64,000 nucleotides of DNA from Promineifilum sp. GTDB taxonomy: Bacteria > Chloroflexota > Anaerolineae > Promineifilales > Promineifilaceae. The stretch is taken from NCBI GenBank assembly GCA_018058545.1, contig JAGOZU010000008.1:1-64000 (forward strand), given 5' to 3'. Below, one piece after another: positions 11,528 to 24,406 of the stretch; the first letter of the stretch is position 1; every line of letters begins with the position of its first letter. The notes below the pieces were generated by a model. The model was not told where the DNA came from. It worked only from the letters and a program-made list of their open reading frames with translations, and searched no databases. A program made the translations under genes and the position numbers.

Positions 11528-12205
11528 TTACTTGCCGATAGCTATCGGAGCAGTGATTTCCTCCAGCTCAGAGTCGGCCAAAACGTATCGACCCAGAATC
11601 GCCAGACCGCCCAGCATCGCCGCCCAGCCGGCCACAGCCAGCGGATAGTGCCAAACATCGGCGTAGTTGATGCCGTCAAGCATATGGGTTGGTCCAGCCC
11701 AAAACTGAACGGTCAGAGTGATCACCCCAACCACGATCATGGCTGCGCCGGCGCCCAGGCCTGAGGAATGATCGTCTTTCTTCAGGGAGTCGACCTGATT
11801 CCGAACGCCGGGAATAAGGTACAGAAGGAAGACGAGCAGCGTGAGAGCGTTCACCCACATGATCGGATCGGCCGGCATCGAGCTGCCGCGCAACGCGCGC
11901 GAAGCGACGACGTGGATTATGCCGGTGATCAGGCCGGCCACCAGCGTGATGACCGCAAAACGATAGGCGCCGGGCTTGCCCCGGATAAGCCGGATCATGG
12001 CAACGATACCCATGATGCCGATGACCACGCCGGCCACGACGAAGAGGATGTATAGCCACTGGAACGGCGCGATCTTGGCGAATACAGGCCCGTATTCGGT
12101 GGGTTTGAAGGCGACACAGAAAGTGCCGATTCCGCCCAGCAGGACAGCTACCGACGTGAGCGCCAATAAAACAATACCAACGATTCGAAATACTTTACCT
12201 AACAT
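11528..12205 (-). CDS. Polytopic membrane protein, unknown (225 aa)
   Basis: I do not recognise the family. At least five and probably six hydrophobic segments are visible: about 5-30, 48-72, 80-100, 117-133, 151-170 and 186-206. Charged loops include KKDDHSSG. There are several His residues near membrane ends (GIIHVVAS, GPTHMLDG, DVWHYPLA), which could be ligands but are not arranged in a known motif. It starts 14 bases after the upstream membrane gene, with AGGAGACATTCA before the ATG. It is the last gene of the row that begins with the 12-TM protein and ctaB, so it may be an accessory subunit of that membrane complex. Confidence 0.7.
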   Translation of the reverse strand: MLGKVFRIVGIVLLALTSVAVLLGGIGTFCVAFKPTEYGPVFAKIAPFQWLYILFVVAGVVIGIMGIVAMIRLIRGKPGAYRFAVITLVAGLITGIIHVVASRALRGSSMPADPIMWVNALTLLVFLLYLIPGVRNQVDSLKKDDHSSGLGAGAAMIVVGVITLTVQFWAGPTHMLDGINYADVWHYPLAVAGWAAMLGGLAILGRYVLADSELEEITAPIAIGK

Positions 12206-12219
12206 TGAATGTCTCCTGA

Positions 12220-12828
12220 CTAACCTAAATGGAAGCCGACAACATATGCGGTGGTCATCAGCAACAACAGGAGCGGGAGAATGGTCAGGATCGTTTGACG
12301 CGAGATGACGGGCTTTCCCATCTTCAGGAACGCCAACAATAGACCCCCCACCCCGATGAGCGCACCACCAATACCTACTAACACGAAGCCGATCGGCGCC
12401 AGGCCGCGCAGGCTCATGTAAATGGGCAAGAGGAAAATCAACAGACCGGCCACGCTATGCACAACCGCCAGGGTAATGACGGCCGCTTTCGACTCCGGTC
12501 GATAGAATCGGGTGAAGGCAACGGCCACGAAACCCAGGATGACGAAGATCAGATAGGCATTGCGCCAGGCGGGCCAATGTTCCCACACCAACCCCAGCGA
12601 TAGCGCCAGGGGAAGGATTGTGGAGACGACGGTCACCAGCGGATTATCCAGGATCTCGAAGCCGAAGATGATCATGAGCAGCCCGGCCAGAAGCAATGTG
12701 CCGAAGGCGATCGTATAAGCCCATATCGACAAGGGTGGCGCGCCCTCGATACCGAATACGATCTGGTAGGCCGCTAATAGCCCAGCCAGAAGGATAAAGA
12801 TACGATCCGGGACTGACATCTTTTTCAT
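12220..12828 (-). CDS. Polytopic membrane protein, unknown (202 aa)
   Basis: Not recognised. The 202 residues contain about six hydrophobic segments (8-25, 33-55, 61-80, 91-106, 116-133, 140-165, 178-198) with few charges and no obvious cofactor-binding residues; one His lies in LVWEHWPAW and one near the C-terminus. It lies 27 bases after ctaB and 14 bases before the next membrane gene, all co-oriented. A GGAAG sequence precedes the start. Context suggests a role together with the heme-related genes upstream, but nothing in the sequence proves it. Confidence 0.68.
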   Translation of the reverse strand: MKKMSVPDRIFILLAGLLAAYQIVFGIEGAPPLSIWAYTIAFGTLLLAGLLMIIFGFEILDNPLVTVVSTILPLALSLGLVWEHWPAWRNAYLIFVILGFVAVAFTRFYRPESKAAVITLAVVHSVAGLLIFLLPIYMSLRGLAPIGFVLVGIGGALIGVGGLLLAFLKMGKPVISRQTILTILPLLLLLMTTAYVVGFHLG

Positions 12829-12855
12829 GGTTACACTTCCACACGCTTCCGGGAA

Positions 12856-13728
12856 TCAGACGACCAGCATCAACAACAGCATCGCACCGAGCATGTAGAG
12901 TGAGGCGTATTTGAACAGGCCGAAGTTGGCACGCTCCGATGGCCGCATCAGGCTGGAGATAGCCAGCAACAGCAGGCCTCCGGTCAGAACGGCCAGCAAG
13001 CGCCAATAGCCAAGCGTCAATCCCACGCCGTAGGCGGCCAGGGCCATCATGCCCCCGGCCAACATGCTGGAGATAGCGACGATCATGCGCGTTTTCGCAA
13101 ACCCGTAAACCGAGGGGAAGGTGGGGACGCCGGCCCGCTGGTAATCATCAAAATAACGCATGCTGAAAGTCATGATATGCGTCGGAATCCAGAACACGAC
13201 AGCCAGAGCCAGGACGATACCGACCCATTCGATCCGTCCCGACCCAAGCGCATGTCCGGCCAGCACCGGCATCCCCCCGGCTAACCCGCCCCAGATGATG
13301 CTCCACGGCGTGCGCCGCTTGAGCCAGATGGTGTAAATCACGACATCGAAAAACAGCCCGGCAAAGACGATAACACCATACAGGACGTCCATGTATAAGG
13401 CCCAGGCAACGCCCAGGACGCTAAGGACAAGGCCTAATATCAACGCCTCGTTCGGGCTGACTTCTCCCGAGGGAATCGGCCGGGCGGCCGTGCGGCCCAT
13501 CCTGGCGTCGATATCCCGGTCGTACCACATATTCAGGATCGTGCTGCCACTTATAGCCAACGTCAGGCTTCCGGCCACAGCCAGCGTGGTTTGCCAGTTG
13601 ATGAACGGACAGCGAGTGCTCATGAATCCCGCCAGGCCCGTCAAGAGCAGCAAGCCGGTCTGCAAGCTTTTGAAAAGTGGCAGGTATCGACGAAATCGCC
13701 GAGTGTGTGAGGTTGGCATATGGCTCAC
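12856..13728 (-). CDS. ctaB: Protoheme IX farnesyltransferase (heme O synthase), UbiA family
   Basis: Integral membrane prenyltransferase adding a farnesyl chain to heme B to give heme O for heme-copper oxidases. The diagnostic Asp-rich motif NMWYDRDIDARMGRTAARP (first catalytic loop) matches heme O synthases closely rather than quinone UbiA enzymes. The second loop has MRYFDDYQRAGVPTFPSVYG. About eight TM segments fit the family length of 290-300. The start is a GTG preceded by GGAGAAG at seven bases. No cytochrome oxidase subunit genes are adjacent in recognisable form; the neighbours are the SUMF1-like lipoprotein and the 12-TM protein upstream and two small membrane proteins downstream. 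Confidence 0.9.
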   Translation of the reverse strand: MSHMPTSHTRRFRRYLPLFKSLQTGLLLLTGLAGFMSTRCPFINWQTTLAVAGSLTLAISGSTILNMWYDRDIDARMGRTAARPIPSGEVSPNEALILGLVLSVLGVAWALYMDVLYGVIVFAGLFFDVVIYTIWLKRRTPWSIIWGGLAGGMPVLAGHALGSGRIEWVGIVLALAVVFWIPTHIMTFSMRYFDDYQRAGVPTFPSVYGFAKTRMIVAISSMLAGGMMALAAYGVGLTLGYWRLLAVLTGGLLLLAISSLMRPSERANFGLFKYASLYMLGAMLLLMLVV

Positions 13729-13750
13729 GAATCATCTTCTCCGTTATAAA

Positions 13751-14710
13751 CTAATTCACATCGCGCACGCAGCGGAAGCCCACTGCCGGGCCGTAGTATT
13801 GCGGTCCGGCGCTGTTGTACTTCCACACTCGCAGGTCTACTTCATAAGAGTAGAAACTGCCGCCGCGCATGTGTCGATAATGCTGGTTGGGATAGTCATC
13901 GCCCACCCACTGCCAGACGTTGCCGGCCATGTCGTAAACGCCGTATGGGCTGGCCGAATCCAGGGTCTGATAACCATCGTAATTCATGCCGTTATAGAAG
14001 CCGACAGGTGTCGTGTTGCCCAGCTTGCCGAAAAGTTTCACGAATACGTCGAACGAGGAGTAGTAGTTGGCGTTGTTGCGTTCGATCTCCAGCCCCCAGG
14101 GGAAGGGACGACCGCGGCCGTCCACGAGCTCCGTGCCGCGCGCCGCTTTCTCCCACTCAACTTCGGTCGGCAAACGCCAGCCGTTGTATTGGCAGAAAGA
14201 ATTGGCGCCGAACCAGGTCACCATGGTGACGGGATGGTTGCTATAGGCGTCCATCGAGGAGAATTCATTCCCATCAAAGGTCAGGCGCAGGCCTTCGCCC
14301 TGCAGGGGCATATATAGCTTGTTGCCGGCCTTGATCTCTTCCTCGTGTCTGAAACCGTCGAAGGGTTCGCCCGGGTAGTGGCCGAACACCCCATTTTCCG
14401 TCCAGATGCTCTCCCCGGCCTCCACTTCAACCTCGCCGATAGTGGCCGCTCCGGAAGCCAGCGCCTCATTGAGGAAGCGGGCATATTGCTCGTTGGTCAC
14501 ATTGGTGACCATGATCTCGAAGTCGTCCGTCATCGTCATATGATCATGCTGGCCGTAAGGGAATTCGCCGGCGGGGACGAGCGCCCAGGATTCCGGATTG
14601 ACTCCCGTGTCCATGAATGGCGGAGTGATAGATCCGATGTTGGGCGTGGGGCCGCAAGCGGCGACCCCGACCATTAACAACAGAGTCAACATGATTAATA
14701 TACGCTTCAT
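13751..14710 (-). CDS. SUMF1/formylglycine-generating-enzyme-fold lipoprotein without FGE cysteines
   Basis: Lipoprotein (VGVAACGPTP lipobox at about residue 19) with a complete C-type-lectin-like SUMF1 fold: VTNEQYARFLNEAL, HPVTMVTWFGANSFCQYNG, WRLPTEVEWEKAARG, YDMAGNVWQWVGDDYP and RHMRGGSFYSYE ... AVGFRCVRD. True formylglycine-generating enzymes carry two catalytic Cys just after GGS; here that stretch is GGSFYSYEVDLRVWKYNSAG with none, so sulfatase activation is unlikely. Its ATG overlaps the stop of the 12-TM gene as ATGA, implying tight translational coupling and probably a shared complex. Possible roles are a surface ligand-binding or structural subunit of that membrane protein. Confidence 0.85.
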   Translation of the reverse strand: MKRILIMLTLLLMVGVAACGPTPNIGSITPPFMDTGVNPESWALVPAGEFPYGQHDHMTMTDDFEIMVTNVTNEQYARFLNEALASGAATIGEVEVEAGESIWTENGVFGHYPGEPFDGFRHEEEIKAGNKLYMPLQGEGLRLTFDGNEFSSMDAYSNHPVTMVTWFGANSFCQYNGWRLPTEVEWEKAARGTELVDGRGRPFPWGLEIERNNANYYSSFDVFVKLFGKLGNTTPVGFYNGMNYDGYQTLDSASPYGVYDMAGNVWQWVGDDYPNQHYRHMRGGSFYSYEVDLRVWKYNSAGPQYYGPAVGFRCVRDVN

Positions 14711-16248
14711 TGGGTAGCCTCCTTGAGGGCCTGATTCAGCTCATCAATCCTTTTACGTTGCTCGGCAATCTCCTTGAGGGCGACCTCCCGTTTCTCGGCC
14801 GCCATTTCATCGGCCCAGTGCCCCTTGGCGCGGAAGAGATCGACCAGTCGCCAGAACATGAATGCCCCCAGCACGGTCAGAATCGTGGCCAAACCGATGT
14901 CGGTCAACAGCATCGTCCAGTTGACGATGCCCTGTTGCCCCGCCTCGGAGACAAAAAGACGCTTCATGGCGAAGACGGTCACCGCGCCAAAGGCCAGATT
15001 GGACATGACGATGATCGACCAGCCAAACCACTTGCGGACGCGGCCTTTAAGCCCTACCCGATCGGCATAGTAGAACAGGATGATGGTAGCGATCAAACTG
15101 GCCAGGATGTGCCAGTGGCCGGTTAGCGTGATTCGCTCATCCCGATGAGGCCAAACGCGGATGATCTCATCAAGTTTGACGGCCATAAAAATACCGATGC
15201 CGCTCACGGTGAAATTCATGAAGACCATTTGCCAGCCGGGGCCGAATTTGAGCGGATCGTGCCCAAGGGCTTTGATCTTCTGCAAGAAGGTCGGTTTTTT
15301 AAGGCCCAATTCGGCGGTACGATCGTTGATCAACTTGGCCCACGCATAGATGACGTAGAGCAATGCGGCCAGCATGACAAAGACCGAGCCGACGTAGATG
15401 GTCGTGTGCGCCCAATCAACCCAGACCACAGAGAGCGCGCCGGTGGTGATGATGATGGTGCCGACGATCATGAGGAGCATCGCCACCTTGTGCAGCCGCC
15501 CTTTGAAGTCCATCCAGCGCCCCACGATCAGGGTGATGGCGATGGCGATCAGGGTCAGCATGATATGCAGGTGACCGATGATCGCGCCTTGCATGGCCGT
15601 CCTGATCGGCGTGCGGATCAGGTCTTCAGCCAGGAATGTCTCGTGACCATTGCCCCAATAGGAGCCGGTGACCGCCCCGAAGGCCGCGGATAGCAATGTA
15701 GCCAGGGCCATGACGAAGAAAGCGGTGCGCTCCAGATCCAGGCCCTTTTTCGTGCGGGCATAGAGGGAGTCTTCGGGGAGGCGATACTCCTTCCGCCATG
15801 GCCACAAGGCGATAGCCAGCAGGATGCCGGCGAAGAAGATCAGCGATTGCCCCAGCAGAAACAGGCCATGAAACATGAAGTTCTGGCCCCAATAGGCAAA
15901 CGCCATGCCGAAGATGACAGTCAACAAATAACCGAAGGTGATGGTGCCGTTGATAAGCACCTGATTCTGCCGCTTCATCGGCAGGATGTCGGTCATGATG
16001 TAGACCTCGATTGCGATGATGGCCATCGCTATCGTATGGTAGAGCATGATGATGCGTGCCTCGCGTTCGGCCTGCACCAGCTGCATCCCCAGCACGCGAA
16101 CTGTGAAGTCGCGCACACCCCATTCCACCATCGGCCCGGAAAGCGTGCCCCAGATCACCGTGATCAGGGAGATGATCGCCATGGCCATGAGGATCAGGCC
16201 GTTCGTGGAAGTAAAGAGATAGTCGATACGTTTTTTAAGCGAACTCAT
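14707..16248 (-). CDS. 12-TM His-rich membrane protein with internal repeats, possibly heme-copper-oxidase-related
   Basis: 513 residues with about 12 predicted TM segments and a charged C-terminal helix. His residues recur at the same place in helices: LYHTIAMAIIAIE (TM2), GHLHIMLTLIAIAI (TM6) and GHWHILASLIATII (TM10), with further His in MFHGLFLLG (TM4) and DWAHTTIYVG (TM8). TM6-7 and TM10-11 align as copies, each followed by a KGR loop, and TM2-3 fits the same pattern. A three-fold arrangement of four-helix units is the architecture of heme-copper oxidase subunit I, and HxH in a late helix is typical of it, but the HH pair of helix VII and the classic CuB motif are not seen. It lies next to heme O synthase. 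Function is therefore inferred: a divergent heme-binding respiratory protein or a novel transporter. Confidence 0.75.
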   Translation of the reverse strand: MSSLKKRIDYLFTSTNGLILMAMAIISLITVIWGTLSGPMVEWGVRDFTVRVLGMQLVQAEREARIIMLYHTIAMAIIAIEVYIMTDILPMKRQNQVLINGTITFGYLLTVIFGMAFAYWGQNFMFHGLFLLGQSLIFFAGILLAIALWPWRKEYRLPEDSLYARTKKGLDLERTAFFVMALATLLSAAFGAVTGSYWGNGHETFLAEDLIRTPIRTAMQGAIIGHLHIMLTLIAIAITLIVGRWMDFKGRLHKVAMLLMIVGTIIITTGALSVVWVDWAHTTIYVGSVFVMLAALLYVIYAWAKLINDRTAELGLKKPTFLQKIKALGHDPLKFGPGWQMVFMNFTVSGIGIFMAVKLDEIIRVWPHRDERITLTGHWHILASLIATIILFYYADRVGLKGRVRKWFGWSIIVMSNLAFGAVTVFAMKRLFVSEAGQQGIVNWTMLLTDIGLATILTVLGAFMFWRLVDLFRAKGHWADEMAAEKREVALKEIAEQRKRIDELNQALKEATQ

Positions 16249-16405
16249 AAAACAGCACCCCCTTATGAGTGTCTTTCAAGTTCAAGTATGGCAGGCTATC
16301 TCTCATCCCCGTAGTGACATACAGCAGTTAAACCCATGAAGAAAGTCACATGTTTTCACACCTAATTTGTGCGTCATTCAGCACGCCTGCCTCTGCTCCT
16401 GATTC

Positions 16406-16558
16406 TCATAAATTCTTCTGCTCAAGGATCAGCCGCTGTGTGCCGGGCAGCCACAAAATGACAAACAGAACCAGAGCGATGAGCGGCGCGGGCAGGAACA
16501 TCGAGAAGCGCTGGACTTCAACGATGTTGATCGCCGCCAGGGGGAAACCACCGATCAT
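16406..16558 (-). CDS. Small hydrophobic protein (50 aa) or C-terminal remnant
   Basis: A short frame reads MIGGFPLAAINIVEVQRFS then a strong TM segment (FLPAPLIALVLFVILWL) and PGTQRLILEQKNL before a TGA. The protein-like composition (a clean TM followed by a charged tail) suggests real coding. No Shine-Dalgarno is visible, and the frame continues open upstream for some codons, so it may be the tail of a decayed membrane gene rather than an intact small protein. It lies 158 bases upstream of the 12-TM gene in the same direction. The rest of the 415-base gap up to the STAS gene shows nothing else. Confidence 0.35.
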   Translation of the reverse strand: MIGGFPLAAINIVEVQRFSMFLPAPLIALVLFVILWLPGTQRLILEQKNL

Positions 16559-19589: not shown

Positions 19590-20093
19590 ATGTCCAACTC
19601 GCCTCCCGAAGGGAAGCAGGGCGTACTGAGCCGTATCTGGGCGGCGGCTCCTTTCCGAGCCTGGCTGATGCTGGCGGCGGTCATCGGCGGAGTGTTCGGA
19701 TTGGGGTTTTTCACGTTCGCCTTTGCCCAGGGAGCTTCCTATTTTTCGGATGACCCTGCGTCCTGCGTCAATTGCCATATCATGCGTGATCAGTACGACG
19801 GCTGGAACCACGGCAGTCACAAATCGGTGGCCACCTGCAATGATTGCCACACGCCCCATGACTCCGTGGTGGCCAAGTACGCCGTGAAGGCGATCAACGG
19901 TTTTCGCCACAGCGCCGCCTTCACGCTCAACAATTTTCACGAACCGATCCAGATCACATCGCTCAATCACCGCGTGGCTCGATCAAGCTGCCTCTATTGC
20001 CACGAAGCCATGACGGCCTATATGAATCATGCCGACAGTGATGATCCCACCGATTGCCTGCTCTGCCACGCGCGGGTCGGGCATGCCAAATAA
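19590..20093 (+). CDS. nrfH: NapC/NirT-family tetraheme cytochrome, NrfH
   Basis: Membrane-anchored tetraheme cytochrome c passing electrons from quinol to NrfA. One N-terminal TM segment (about 24-47) is followed by four CxxCH sites at about Cys59 (CVNCH), Cys83 (CNDCH), Cys134 (CLYCH) and Cys156 (CLLCH), as in NrfH. The Met after the first motif (CVNCHIM) fits the unusual Met-ligated first heme of NrfH. Length 167 is normal. AAAGGAG stands upstream. It is 15 bases before nrfA in the usual nrfHA order. Confidence 0.94.
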   Translation: MSNSPPEGKQGVLSRIWAAAPFRAWLMLAAVIGGVFGLGFFTFAFAQGASYFSDDPASCVNCHIMRDQYDGWNHGSHKSVATCNDCHTPHDSVVAKYAVKAINGFRHSAAFTLNNFHEPIQITSLNHRVARSSCLYCHEAMTAYMNHADSDDPTDCLLCHARVGHAK

Positions 20094-20108: not shown

Positions 20109-21419
20109 ATGACCAATCAGGAACCCACGCAAAAATCACCCAGTCGATGGTGGCTTATTGGCGCCTTTGTCGGCGGCCTGGTCATCATGGGCTTGATCGC
20201 CGCCCTGCTGGTGAATATCACCACCCGCAAGGCCGAGGGGGAGCAATATCCGCTCAAAGTCGTCGAGATCGCCGATGATGAACTGGATCCGCAGGTCTGG
20301 GGCAAGAATTTCCCCCGACACTATGACTCCTTCATGAAGACCCAGGACTCGACCATCAGCACGCCATTCGGCGGCTCCATACCCTATAGCAAGCTGGAGC
20401 GTGTTCCGGCGATGGTGCGCATCTGGGCCGGCTACGCCTTCAGCATCGACCACAACGAGGAACGGGGCCATTACTACACGCTGACCGACCAGCTGGAAAC
20501 CCAGCGAATTCAGGTTGTGGAGCAACCCGGCGCGTGTGCCAACTGCCACTCGGCCGACGCTCCGCGCCTGATCGCCGAGATGGGCTGGGAAGCGTTCAAC
20601 AAGACACCTTACAACGAATTGAAGGCCGACCTCCACTACGGCACGTCCTGCGCCGATTGCCACGACCCGCAGACGATGGAACTGCGCATCACCCGCCCGG
20701 GGCTTATCAATGCCATGACCGCGCGTGGCGTGGATCTGGAAGCCACCACCCGCCAGGAGATGCGCACCTACGTGTGTGCCCAATGCCACGTCGAGTACTA
20801 CTTCAAGGGCGACAACAAGGAACTGACCTTCCCCTGGAGCCAGGGATTGTCTATCGACGACATCGAGGCCCACTACGACACTTACGAATTCAAGGACTGG
20901 ACGCATAAAGAGACCAACGCACCGATGATCAAGATCCAGCATCCTGAATTTGAGATGTTCTCCAGCGGCCTGCATTACAAGTCGGGCGTGGCCTGCGCCG
21001 ACTGTCATATGCCCTACGTCCGCGAGGGCGCGGTCAAGATCTCCGATCACTGGCTGCGCAGCCCGATGGTCAATATCAACAACGCCTGTCAGACCTGCCA
21101 CCGGCAGGATGAGGCCGTCCTGCTGGAGCGCATCAACACGATCCAGAACCGCACCGCCGACCTGTTGCGCTCGACCGAAGAGTCGCTGCTCGACGCCATC
21201 GACGCCATCGTCGCCGCGCAGAACTCGGGGGCAACGGACGAGCAGCTGGAAAACGCCCGTTATCTGCACCGCCGCGCCTCGCTGCGCTGGGACTTCGTCT
21301 CGTCGGAAAACTCCACCGGCTTCCACAGCCCGCAGGAATCGGCTCGCATCCTGGCTGACGCGATCAACTTCGCCCGCCAGGCCCAACTGGAGGCCGAACG
21401 GCTGGGCGGCACGCCCTAA
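20109..21419 (+). CDS. nrfA: Ammonia-forming cytochrome c552 nitrite reductase NrfA
   Basis: Pentaheme enzyme reducing nitrite to ammonium by six electrons outside the membrane. An N-terminal TM/signal anchor (about 15-37) is followed by five CxxCH motifs: CANCHSAD, CADCHDPQ, CAQCHVEYYF, CADCHMPY and CQTCHRQD. The active-site heme, CxxCK in E. coli, is CANCH here, so this is the CxxCH-type NrfA. Catalytic residues are retained: Tyr of CHVEYYF, Gln-His of KIQHPEFEMFSSGLH. 436 residues. GAGGAAG stands before the ATG. With NrfH it makes a complete quinol:nitrite oxidoreductase; detoxification or dissimilatory ammonification are both possible. Confidence 0.95.
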   Translation: MTNQEPTQKSPSRWWLIGAFVGGLVIMGLIAALLVNITTRKAEGEQYPLKVVEIADDELDPQVWGKNFPRHYDSFMKTQDSTISTPFGGSIPYSKLERVPAMVRIWAGYAFSIDHNEERGHYYTLTDQLETQRIQVVEQPGACANCHSADAPRLIAEMGWEAFNKTPYNELKADLHYGTSCADCHDPQTMELRITRPGLINAMTARGVDLEATTRQEMRTYVCAQCHVEYYFKGDNKELTFPWSQGLSIDDIEAHYDTYEFKDWTHKETNAPMIKIQHPEFEMFSSGLHYKSGVACADCHMPYVREGAVKISDHWLRSPMVNINNACQTCHRQDEAVLLERINTIQNRTADLLRSTEESLLDAIDAIVAAQNSGATDEQLENARYLHRRASLRWDFVSSENSTGFHSPQESARILADAINFARQAQLEAERLGGTP

Positions 21420-23765: not shown

Positions 23766-23999
23766 ATGGATACTGCAAAACTCTTCACCAACGGCCGCAG
23801 CCAGGCCGTCCGTCTGCCCAAGGAATACCGCTTCGAAGGATCGGAGGTTTTCATCAAGAAAGTCGGCGATGCCGTGATGCTTATCCCCTTCACCCAGTCA
23901 TGGCAAACGCTCATCGACAGTCTGGATCAATTCTCCAATGATTTCATGGAGAGTCGGGAGCAGCCGCCAATACAAGAGCGCGAGTCACCATTCGCATGA
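23766..23999 (+). CDS. vapB: VapB-type antitoxin (AbrB/MazE fold)
   Basis: 77-residue antitoxin. The N-terminal swapped-hairpin DNA-binding signature is clear: AKLFTNGRSQAVRLPKEYRF, then GSEVFIKKVGDAVMLIP. The C-terminal tail (about 45-77, acidic and Pro-containing) would bind and inhibit the toxin. Its TGA overlaps the vapC ATG (ATGA), the normal coupling in such operons. A palindrome lies just upstream. The first codons have a weak GAGGCG ribosome site. Confidence 0.92.
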   Translation: MDTAKLFTNGRSQAVRLPKEYRFEGSEVFIKKVGDAVMLIPFTQSWQTLIDSLDQFSNDFMESREQPPIQERESPFA

Positions 24000-24406
24000 A
24001 GTATCTTCTCGATACAGACATCTGTATCTACCTCATCAGGCAGCGCCCGCCGGGCGTGATTCGGGAAATGGCACGGCAGCAAGTCGGCGACGTGGGCCTG
24101 TCATCCATAACGGTTGCCGAGCTACAATATGGCGTGATGAAGAGTGCGCAGGTGGAGCGCAATCAATCGGCGCTGGTGCAATTCCTCGCGCCGCTGGTCA
24201 TAGTCGACTTCGATGCGGCTGCCGCGACCGCTTACGGGAATGTTCGCGCCCTGCTGGAGCGAAACGGAACGCCCATAGGTTCGCTGGATACCTTGATCGC
24301 CGCTCATGCGCTGAGCCTGGATGTAACTTTGGTCACCAACAATGAGCGCGAGTTCAGTCGCGTACCTCGGCTGAAACTCGCAAACTGGACGACGAATAAC
24401 GAATAA
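23996..24406 (+). CDS. vapC: VapC-type toxin, PIN-domain ribonuclease
   Basis: 136-residue PIN-domain nuclease, toxin partner of VapB. The acidic catalytic residues are present: Asp in YLLDTDICIYLIR, Glu in SSITVAELQYGV, Asp in GSLDTLIAAHAL, and the final TNNEREFSRVPRL. The size and order match VapC/FitB proteins, which cleave tRNA or rRNA. The frame is intact with no missing residue, so it is probably active. Confidence 0.94.
   Translation: MKYLLDTDICIYLIRQRPPGVIREMARQQVGDVGLSSITVAELQYGVMKSAQVERNQSALVQFLAPLVIVDFDAAAATAYGNVRALLERNGTPIGSLDTLIAAHALSLDVTLVTNNEREFSRVPRLKLANWTTNNE

Follow-up and report, generated by a model that had tools for sequence, protein, structure and literature searches.

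A conserved operon in Promineifilum sp. and other bacteria encodes a predicted heme-copper oxidase-like membrane protein associated with nitrite reduction genes

The stretch of DNA analyzed here (the window; 64,000 nucleotides [nt]) is positions 1 to 64,000 of contig JAGOZU010000008.1 from the Promineifilum sp. assembly GCA_018058545.1 and carries an operon of five intact minus-strand genes that runs from 16248 to 11528 in the order P1-P2-P3-P4-P5. The product of the first gene, the membrane protein P1, is best read as a new, divergent branch of the heme-copper oxidases (HCOs) that has a noncanonical histidine set and is tied to nitrite and nitric oxide (NO) metabolism. The structure model supports the fold of HCO subunit I for P1, while the strict HCO active-site pattern is absent. 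Co-regulation of the P1 operon with nrfHA, the genes for the ammonia-forming cytochrome c nitrite reductase, is supported in relatives. No description of the operon was found in the openly accessible literature. The genes are listed below with lengths in amino acids (aa), predicted transmembrane helices (TM), and, in parentheses, the evidence used.

14707..16248, minus strand: P1, 513 aa, 12-TM protein with a predicted HCO subunit I-like fold (open reading frame [ORF], alignment, AlphaFold2 [AF2], Foldseek)
13751..14710, minus strand: P2, 319 aa, exported protein with a SUMF1/FGE fold (PF03781, conservation, lipobox count)
12856..13728, minus strand: P3, 290 aa, heme O synthase, CtaB/CyoE (TIGR01473, conservation)
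12220..12828, minus strand: P4, 202 aa, 7-TM protein (AF2, alignment)
11528..12205, minus strand: P5, 225 aa, small membrane protein (conservation)

Operon organization and distribution

The first-pass annotation of the sequence had described six genes in one direction; five are intact ORFs on the minus strand, while the sixth (16406 to 16558) is a truncated remnant. The ATGA coupling that it had noted between the 12-TM and SUMF1-like genes is present as a 4-nt overlap at 14707 to 14710. The genome bin containing the window is 3.6 Mb in size and 98% complete, its P1 clusters with Anaerolineae relatives, and no plasmid homolog was found.

One scan for P1 relatives gave 170 stretches, of which 80 were fetched and used for the locus comparisons. 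These 80 relatives share 58–85% identity, and their genomes span at least nine phyla, carrying the labels Chloroflexota, Spirochaetota, Calditrichota, Ignavibacteriota, Chlorobiota, Fidelibacterota (Neomarinimicrobiota), KSB1, Bacteroidota, Aminicenantes, and Desulfuromonadota/Myxococcota. P1-P2-P3 are kept together in most of the 80 loci, usually with P4, and P5 or a paralog of P4 (P4b) is often present. The pairing of P1 with the SUMF1-like gene, for which a neighborhood search had been proposed, thus recurs, and a gene order shared across so many phyla argues that the cluster is not due to chance. Seven histidines (positions 71, 127, 226, 228, 281, 378, and 380) are invariant in an alignment of 43 P1 sequences, and the same seven are kept in 46 sequences that include short relatives with about 40% identity. 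P1 forms a genuine, ancient, and highly conserved family, and it has no match to a Pfam or NCBIfam family and no PDB match by protein or profile sequence search.

Predicted fold and histidine arrangement of P1

The AF2 model of P1 has 12 TM helices, with a predicted local distance difference test score (pLDDT) of 80.7 and a predicted template modeling score (pTM) of 0.86. In a Foldseek search of this model against 350,542 PDB chains, the best ten matches were all HCO subunit I, with probabilities of 0.99 to 1.00 and full-length template modeling (TM) scores of 0.44 to 0.59; the highest was to Thermus ba3 (0.59 by query length and 0.55–0.57 by target length). The non-HCO matches listed had query-length TM-scores (TMq) of 0.23 or less, and those to the transporters MATE and MurJ were poor (TMq of 0.20 or less). 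The structure match is therefore to HCOs and not to transporters and the histidines are invariant in homologs, the two points on which the first-pass annotation had staked its comparison with HCO subunit I.

That annotation had also reported 12 TM helices with three histidine motifs, and 12 helices were predicted with the motifs YHTIA on TM2, GHLHIML on TM6, and GHWHILA on TM10, which hold the same place in their respective 4-TM units. Profile comparison relates units 2 and 3 (hhalign probability of 82%, E value of 9e-6) and gave no similarity between unit 1 and either of them. The invariant histidines are H71 in TM2, H127 at the start of TM4, H226/H228 in TM6, H281 at the start of TM8, and H378/H380 in TM10. 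Judged from the order of the helices, each of the seven sits in the N-terminal half of an even helix (TM2, 4, 6, 8, or 10), which would place them on the periplasmic side if the N terminus is cytoplasmic as in HCOs.

Known HCO-fold reductases are recognized by one histidine pattern, in which hemes are held by TM2 and TM10 and the second metal by TM6 and the HH pair of TM7; the MRRR loop binds the heme propionates. From helix order and alignment, the invariant H71 of TM2 and H378/H380 of TM10 are candidate heme ligands in P1. A weak profile-profile alignment (E value of 0.16), used as corroboration only, places GHWH of P1 on AHFH of HCO TM10 and MKR on the MRRR loop. The likeness to subunit I of the A- and B-type O2 reductases thus consists of 12 TM as three 4-TM units with a full-length fold match, histidines on TM2 and TM10 (HxH), and an adjacent heme O synthase. 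P1 differs from it in having no sequence match to PF00115 (COX1), no HH on TM7, HxH also on TM6, and extra invariant histidines at the starts of TM4 and TM8, and its operon has no subunit II carrying CuA or cytochrome c. The lack of a standard CuB motif had been noted before and agrees with the absence of the TM7 HH in the model. The TM6 histidine plus TM7 HH triad for FeB in NO reductases (NORs), with its Glu/Gln signature, is likewise absent, as TM6 of P1 reads GHLHIM.

Promoter palindromes and regulators

Between the genes of the P1 loci, the palindrome TGTGA-N6-TCACA was counted 17 times (0.1 expected) and TTGAY-N4-RTCAA 10 times (0.5 expected); many of them lie directly before P4b, P1, or a divergent crp gene. 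The motif type bound by HcpR, DNR, and regulators related to them follows residue 180 of their recognition helix (PMC1274295). Footprinting has placed HcpR1 on TGTGA-N6-TCACA (PMC5701242), and PMC12750200 describes HcpR as a heme-dependent NO responder. In the P1 loci, Arg at CRP position 180 of the neighboring Crp protein pairs with TGTGA sites (L010, L011, L013, L016, L037, L041, and L074) and Pro with TTGA sites (L007, L035, L052, L036, and L071), so the motif type in these relatives matches the regulator as it does in HcpR/DNR-type regulons. The likeness to those regulons extends to the palindromes themselves (TGTGA-N6-TCACA and TTGAC-N4-GTCAA) and to nrfHA as a common target; the difference is that the target here is an undescribed operon and the regulators are putatively HcpR/DNR-like. 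The neighboring Crp proteins score only weakly against the named Crp/Fnr subfamilies and show few N-terminal cysteines. Rrf2 genes occur near P1 at L050, L052, L073, and L080.

The exact sequence TGTGAC-N4-GTCACA was found at 28 sites in 37 P1 genomes, with 11 before P1 operons, 7 before nrfHA (G104, G451, G216, G048, G392, G064, and G440), and 10 elsewhere; a reversed-pattern control matched in only 2 of 36 genomes. In all seven nrfHA cases, the site is directly followed by nrfH, recognized by its ORF annotation or by four CxxCH motifs in the ORF. Other genes near exact sites (L202, L204, L205, L210-L213, and L216-L218) encode multiheme cytochromes, an Rrf2 regulator, cytochrome bd, and HdrC-like proteins, and a wider regulon around these sites is possible. 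The features of the window that concern regulation and nitrite reduction, and the remnant upstream of P1, are as follows.

16335..16350, minus strand: degenerate Crp/HcpR-type site TGTGACTTTCTTCATG, upstream of P1 (motif scan)
16406..16558, minus strand: truncated remnant of the cluster 7 family (tblastn)
19590..20093, plus strand: nrfH, cytochrome c nitrite reductase small subunit (TIGR03153, 152 bits, above the cut-off)
20109..21419, plus strand: nrfA, ammonia-forming cytochrome c nitrite reductase (PF02335, 492.7 bits)

A relative with 85% identity (L003) has the near-perfect site TGTGACTTTCTTCACA in the same place as the site of the window.

Genomic context in nitrite and NO metabolism

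In the window, nrfHA, earlier placed about 3 kb away, starts 3.3 kb from the P1 operon, and a KSB1 genome has crp-nrfH-nrfA at a distance of about 3 kb from P4b-P1. In the complete genome G003, three crp genes lie divergent to the P1 operon and are followed by nirS, a cupin gene, and an NnrS/COX1-like gene. A gene for a DUF438-hemerythrin protein follows the P1 cluster in a Neomarinimicrobiota genome. Short P1 relatives adjoin genes for a flavodiiron protein and a DUF438-hemerythrin (YtfE-like) protein in G009 and genes for a divergent HCO and an NADH-dehydrogenase-like protein in G186.

Among 151 Chloroflexota genomes, NrfA was found in 8 of the 9 with P1 and in 4 of the 142 others, and NirS in 5 of 9 and 1 of 142, respectively, so that 5 of the 6 NirS genomes carry P1. 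Kinship inflates the P1-NrfA co-occurrence, which was therefore used as support only. Genome G040 has P1 and no strong NrfA. NirS, NrfA, and P1 are all encoded in genome G048, where an A-type O2 reductase (SHPAVY) is the one HCO present; A-type oxidases are already present in many P1 genomes.

Partner proteins and heme O

P2 matches PF03781 with an E value of 6e-36 and 124.8 bits, which corresponds to the SUMF1 fold, and has a lipoprotein signal in the window copy; a lipobox-like sequence is present in 47 of 70 relatives. The catalytic copper-binding cysteine pair of FGE is absent, as the first-pass annotation had also seen, and only C314, near the C terminus, is an invariant cysteine in 69 P2 sequences. 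P3 scores 227 bits against TIGR01473 (curated cut-off of 210.3), in agreement with its earlier naming as a heme O synthase, and N66, D70, D74, and the second motif D195/Y196 are invariant. The 7-TM AF2 model of P4 has a pLDDT of 96 and one invariant histidine (H124), and Foldseek returned only unspecific 7-TM matches for it; the paralogous P4b precedes P1 in many genomes. P5 has the invariant residues C30, R106, H174, and N180.

The remnant at 16406 to 16558 corresponds to the C-terminal 50 residues of a membrane protein family of about 265 aa (cluster 7) that is intact upstream of P1 elsewhere, and tblastn aligns it at 52% identity with residues 213-262 in the copy of L056; the upstream part of the operon has therefore been cut off in the window. 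Some genomes have the P1 operon preceded by a gene for a NapH-like 4Fe-4S membrane protein (cluster 10). Beta-barrel genes follow the P1 operon in Calditrichota, Ignavibacteria, Bacteroidota, and Desulfuromonadales, and FadL genes are absent from the Chloroflexota loci. The outer-membrane beta-barrel genes downstream of P1, seen in several Gram-negative phyla, are of the Toluene_X/FadL-like type at L038, L045, L067, L070, and L082 and of the Phenol_MetA_deg-like type at L056, L057, L059, L063, L064, and L075.

The presence of a heme O synthase without a recognizable oxidase, reported earlier for the window, holds more widely: no PF00115 protein was found in 16 of the 40 P1 genomes reached through other loci or in G064 (99% complete), a count to be read with the possible incompleteness of some genome bins. 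The sole strong heme O synthase of G064 is the copy beside P1. As heme O has no recognized oxidase client in these genomes, P1 is the obvious candidate, and it may be the client of the heme O made by P3.

Proposed function and alternatives

The chances are about even that P1 is a hemoprotein with the HCO fold and, probably, O-type heme and that it consumes NO arising from nitrite respiration; heme ligation, use of heme O, a quinol donor, NO as substrate, and catalysis are what we infer for it. In the proposed mechanism, P1 would consist of three 4-TM units whose histidine-bearing helices TM2, TM6, and TM10 hold hemes near the periplasmic face. A low-spin heme would probably be bound by H71 and one histidine of the TM10 HxH pair, and a second heme, probably O-type from P3, by the other TM10 histidine, with H226/H228 together with H281 and/or H127 replacing the TM7 HH as ligands for a second metal or a further heme. 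The operon would be induced together with nrfHA by HcpR/DNR-like regulators of the Crp family, with Rrf2 nearby in other phyla. NO leaking from nitrite reduction would enter P1 via the membrane. Electrons would also be drawn from the membrane; quinol is the probable donor, as the operon has no cytochrome c or CuA subunit. They would pass from the low-spin heme to the O-type heme beside the metal or heme at the TM6 histidines. P1 would then reduce NO, most simply to N2O. P2 may be an exported scaffold or assembly factor that stabilizes the complex on the outer face, and P4, P4b, and P5 may be membrane partners of P1. A more tentative proposal, to which we give well under an even chance, is that P1 is a new class of NO-reducing (or other gas-reducing) enzyme on the HCO fold with a differently built active site, where HxH on both TM6 and TM10 lets a metal or heme fill the third, normally empty pore; anaerobes that ammonify nitrite or carry NirS but lack a known NOR would then have their missing NO reductase in P1.

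Several observations weigh against a role of P1 as an HCO-like protein of NO metabolism. PF00115 does not match P1 at E values up to 1, and COX1 is not among the Pfam matches of 43 P1 members at E values up to 10. The Foldseek E values are modest (best, 0.015), and the unrelated 7-TM model of P4 also obtains hits at an E value of 0.02, so the structural case depends on the consistency of the hits and the gap in TM-score. TM7 of P1 has no invariant histidine and no HH, the nearest being H281 at the start of TM8, and a binuclear site is thus hypothetical; the heme and metal ligands proposed from helix order and alignment are candidates. The palindrome TGTGA-N6-TCACA doubles as the consensus of CRP, another site occurs near cytochrome bd (L216), and the site of the window itself has three mismatches and is matched by 8% of shuffles. 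In the only family that offered enough genomes, P1 and NrfA are not significantly associated (P = 0.24), and most genomes with both NirS and P1, those other than G048, also carry an eNOR-type protein (GHPAQQ).

It is fairly unlikely that P1 is instead a noncatalytic membrane protein that binds NO or protects heme and copper, lowering nitrosative damage without NO turnover in the manner of NnrS. The canonical catalytic metal site is missing from P1, NnrS/COX1-like multi-TM genes occur in the same island as P1 at L222, L011, L013, and L018, and the regulon is of the same kind (PMC1274295). NnrS (PF05940)/COX1-like proteins also resemble P1 in being multi-TM, histidine-bearing members of reactive nitrogen species (RNS) regulons, but they differ in size and motifs and show no hidden Markov model homology to it; the identification of P1 as NnrS was rejected, with PF05940 not among the Pfam matches of the 43 members at E values up to 10. 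The heme O synthase dedicated to P1 and its several conserved membrane partners speak for P1 being an enzyme. An O2-scavenging or microaerobic HCO-like quinol oxidase that protects anaerobes would account for the HCO fold and for heme O synthase, which is known to serve O2 reductases, and the co-regulation with nrfHA would then reflect anaerobic or redox control and not NO. The palindrome near the cytochrome bd genes fits such an oxidase, as do the flavodiiron proteins beside a short P1 relative, which can reduce O2 too. We consider this oxidase unlikely in view of the missing TM7 HH for CuB, the recurrent linkage to nirS, nrfHA, and RNS-type regulators, and the A-type oxidases that many P1 genomes already have.

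The regulatory site common to the P1 operon and nrfHA and the NapH-like cluster 10 upstream in some genomes would suit a quinol dehydrogenase or electron-transfer complex of P1, P2, P4, and P5 that feeds NrfHA or another periplasmic reductase. However, NrfH already serves NrfA, nrfHA lies outside the operon, G040 has P1 with no strong NrfA, and the operon has no cytochrome c, which makes such a complex improbable. A part for P1 in the maturation or transport of heme, or of some other hydrophobic compound, in partnership with outer-membrane proteins (FadL-like ones and others), could explain the Toluene_X/FadL-like and other beta-barrel genes after the operon in several phyla; it is very improbable given the poor transporter fold matches (MATE and MurJ, as above), the invariant histidines on HCO heme helices, and the Chloroflexota loci without FadL genes. 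NosB of clade II nos clusters, the first guess, was dropped: it is a different membrane protein, encoded between nosZ and nosD, and has other motifs (PMC9697520).

With cNOR, qNOR, and eNOR, P1 shares the HCO fold and an N-oxide genomic context and regulation, and it differs from them in lacking the FeB triad and in having an operon with a heme O synthase but without a cytochrome c or cupredoxin subunit; the same genomes carry eNOR (GHPAQQ) as a gene of its own. Of the divergent or new respiratory complex first suggested, the divergent HCO-like fold stands; a respiratory, energy-conserving role would be hypothetical, and the evidence points more specifically to nitrite and NO metabolism, touched on earlier through the mention of nrfHA. 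A family with the HCO fold but without the usual histidine pattern would be invisible to present annotation. The tie of P1 to nrfHA and nirS bears on the fate of NO in bacteria without a known NO reductase, and how NO-making bacteria of this kind cope is an open question in Chloroflexota (PMC8756737). If P1 does make N2O from NO, nitrate ammonifiers are undercounted in surveys of N2O sources, and P1 would serve as a natural test of the extent to which the HCO active site tolerates rebuilding.

Other observations

The divergent HCO beside the short P1 relative in G186 (L141, 8316-9944) scores 220.9 bits against the COX1 family and has HH on TM7, HAH on TM10, and GN in place of the usual GH on TM6; it is possibly NO dismutase-like or a new NOR type. 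Multi-TM proteins of about 390-440 aa are encoded at L172 (1169-2455), L173 (564-1883), L176 (1212-2510), L002 (2060-3313), and L222 (2573-3751). The L172 protein matches COX1 above the cut-off in part, that of L002, from the genome of the window itself, matches weakly over its length, and that of L222 has no NCBIfam name; this group is possibly another unrecognized HCO-like or NnrS-like set in N-oxide regulons. Single 4-TM proteins of about 135-190 aa, sometimes in tandem, are encoded at L174 (894-1346), L175 (1241-1648 and 1652-2083), and L177. The two tested match one third of PF00115 just under the cut-off, one of them also matching DUF2871 and NnrS weakly, and these proteins look like a one-unit HCO fold. 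Elsewhere in the window, an antitoxin-like ORF (23766-23999) is followed by an ORF for a PIN-domain VapC-like toxin (23996-24406), both judged by eye.

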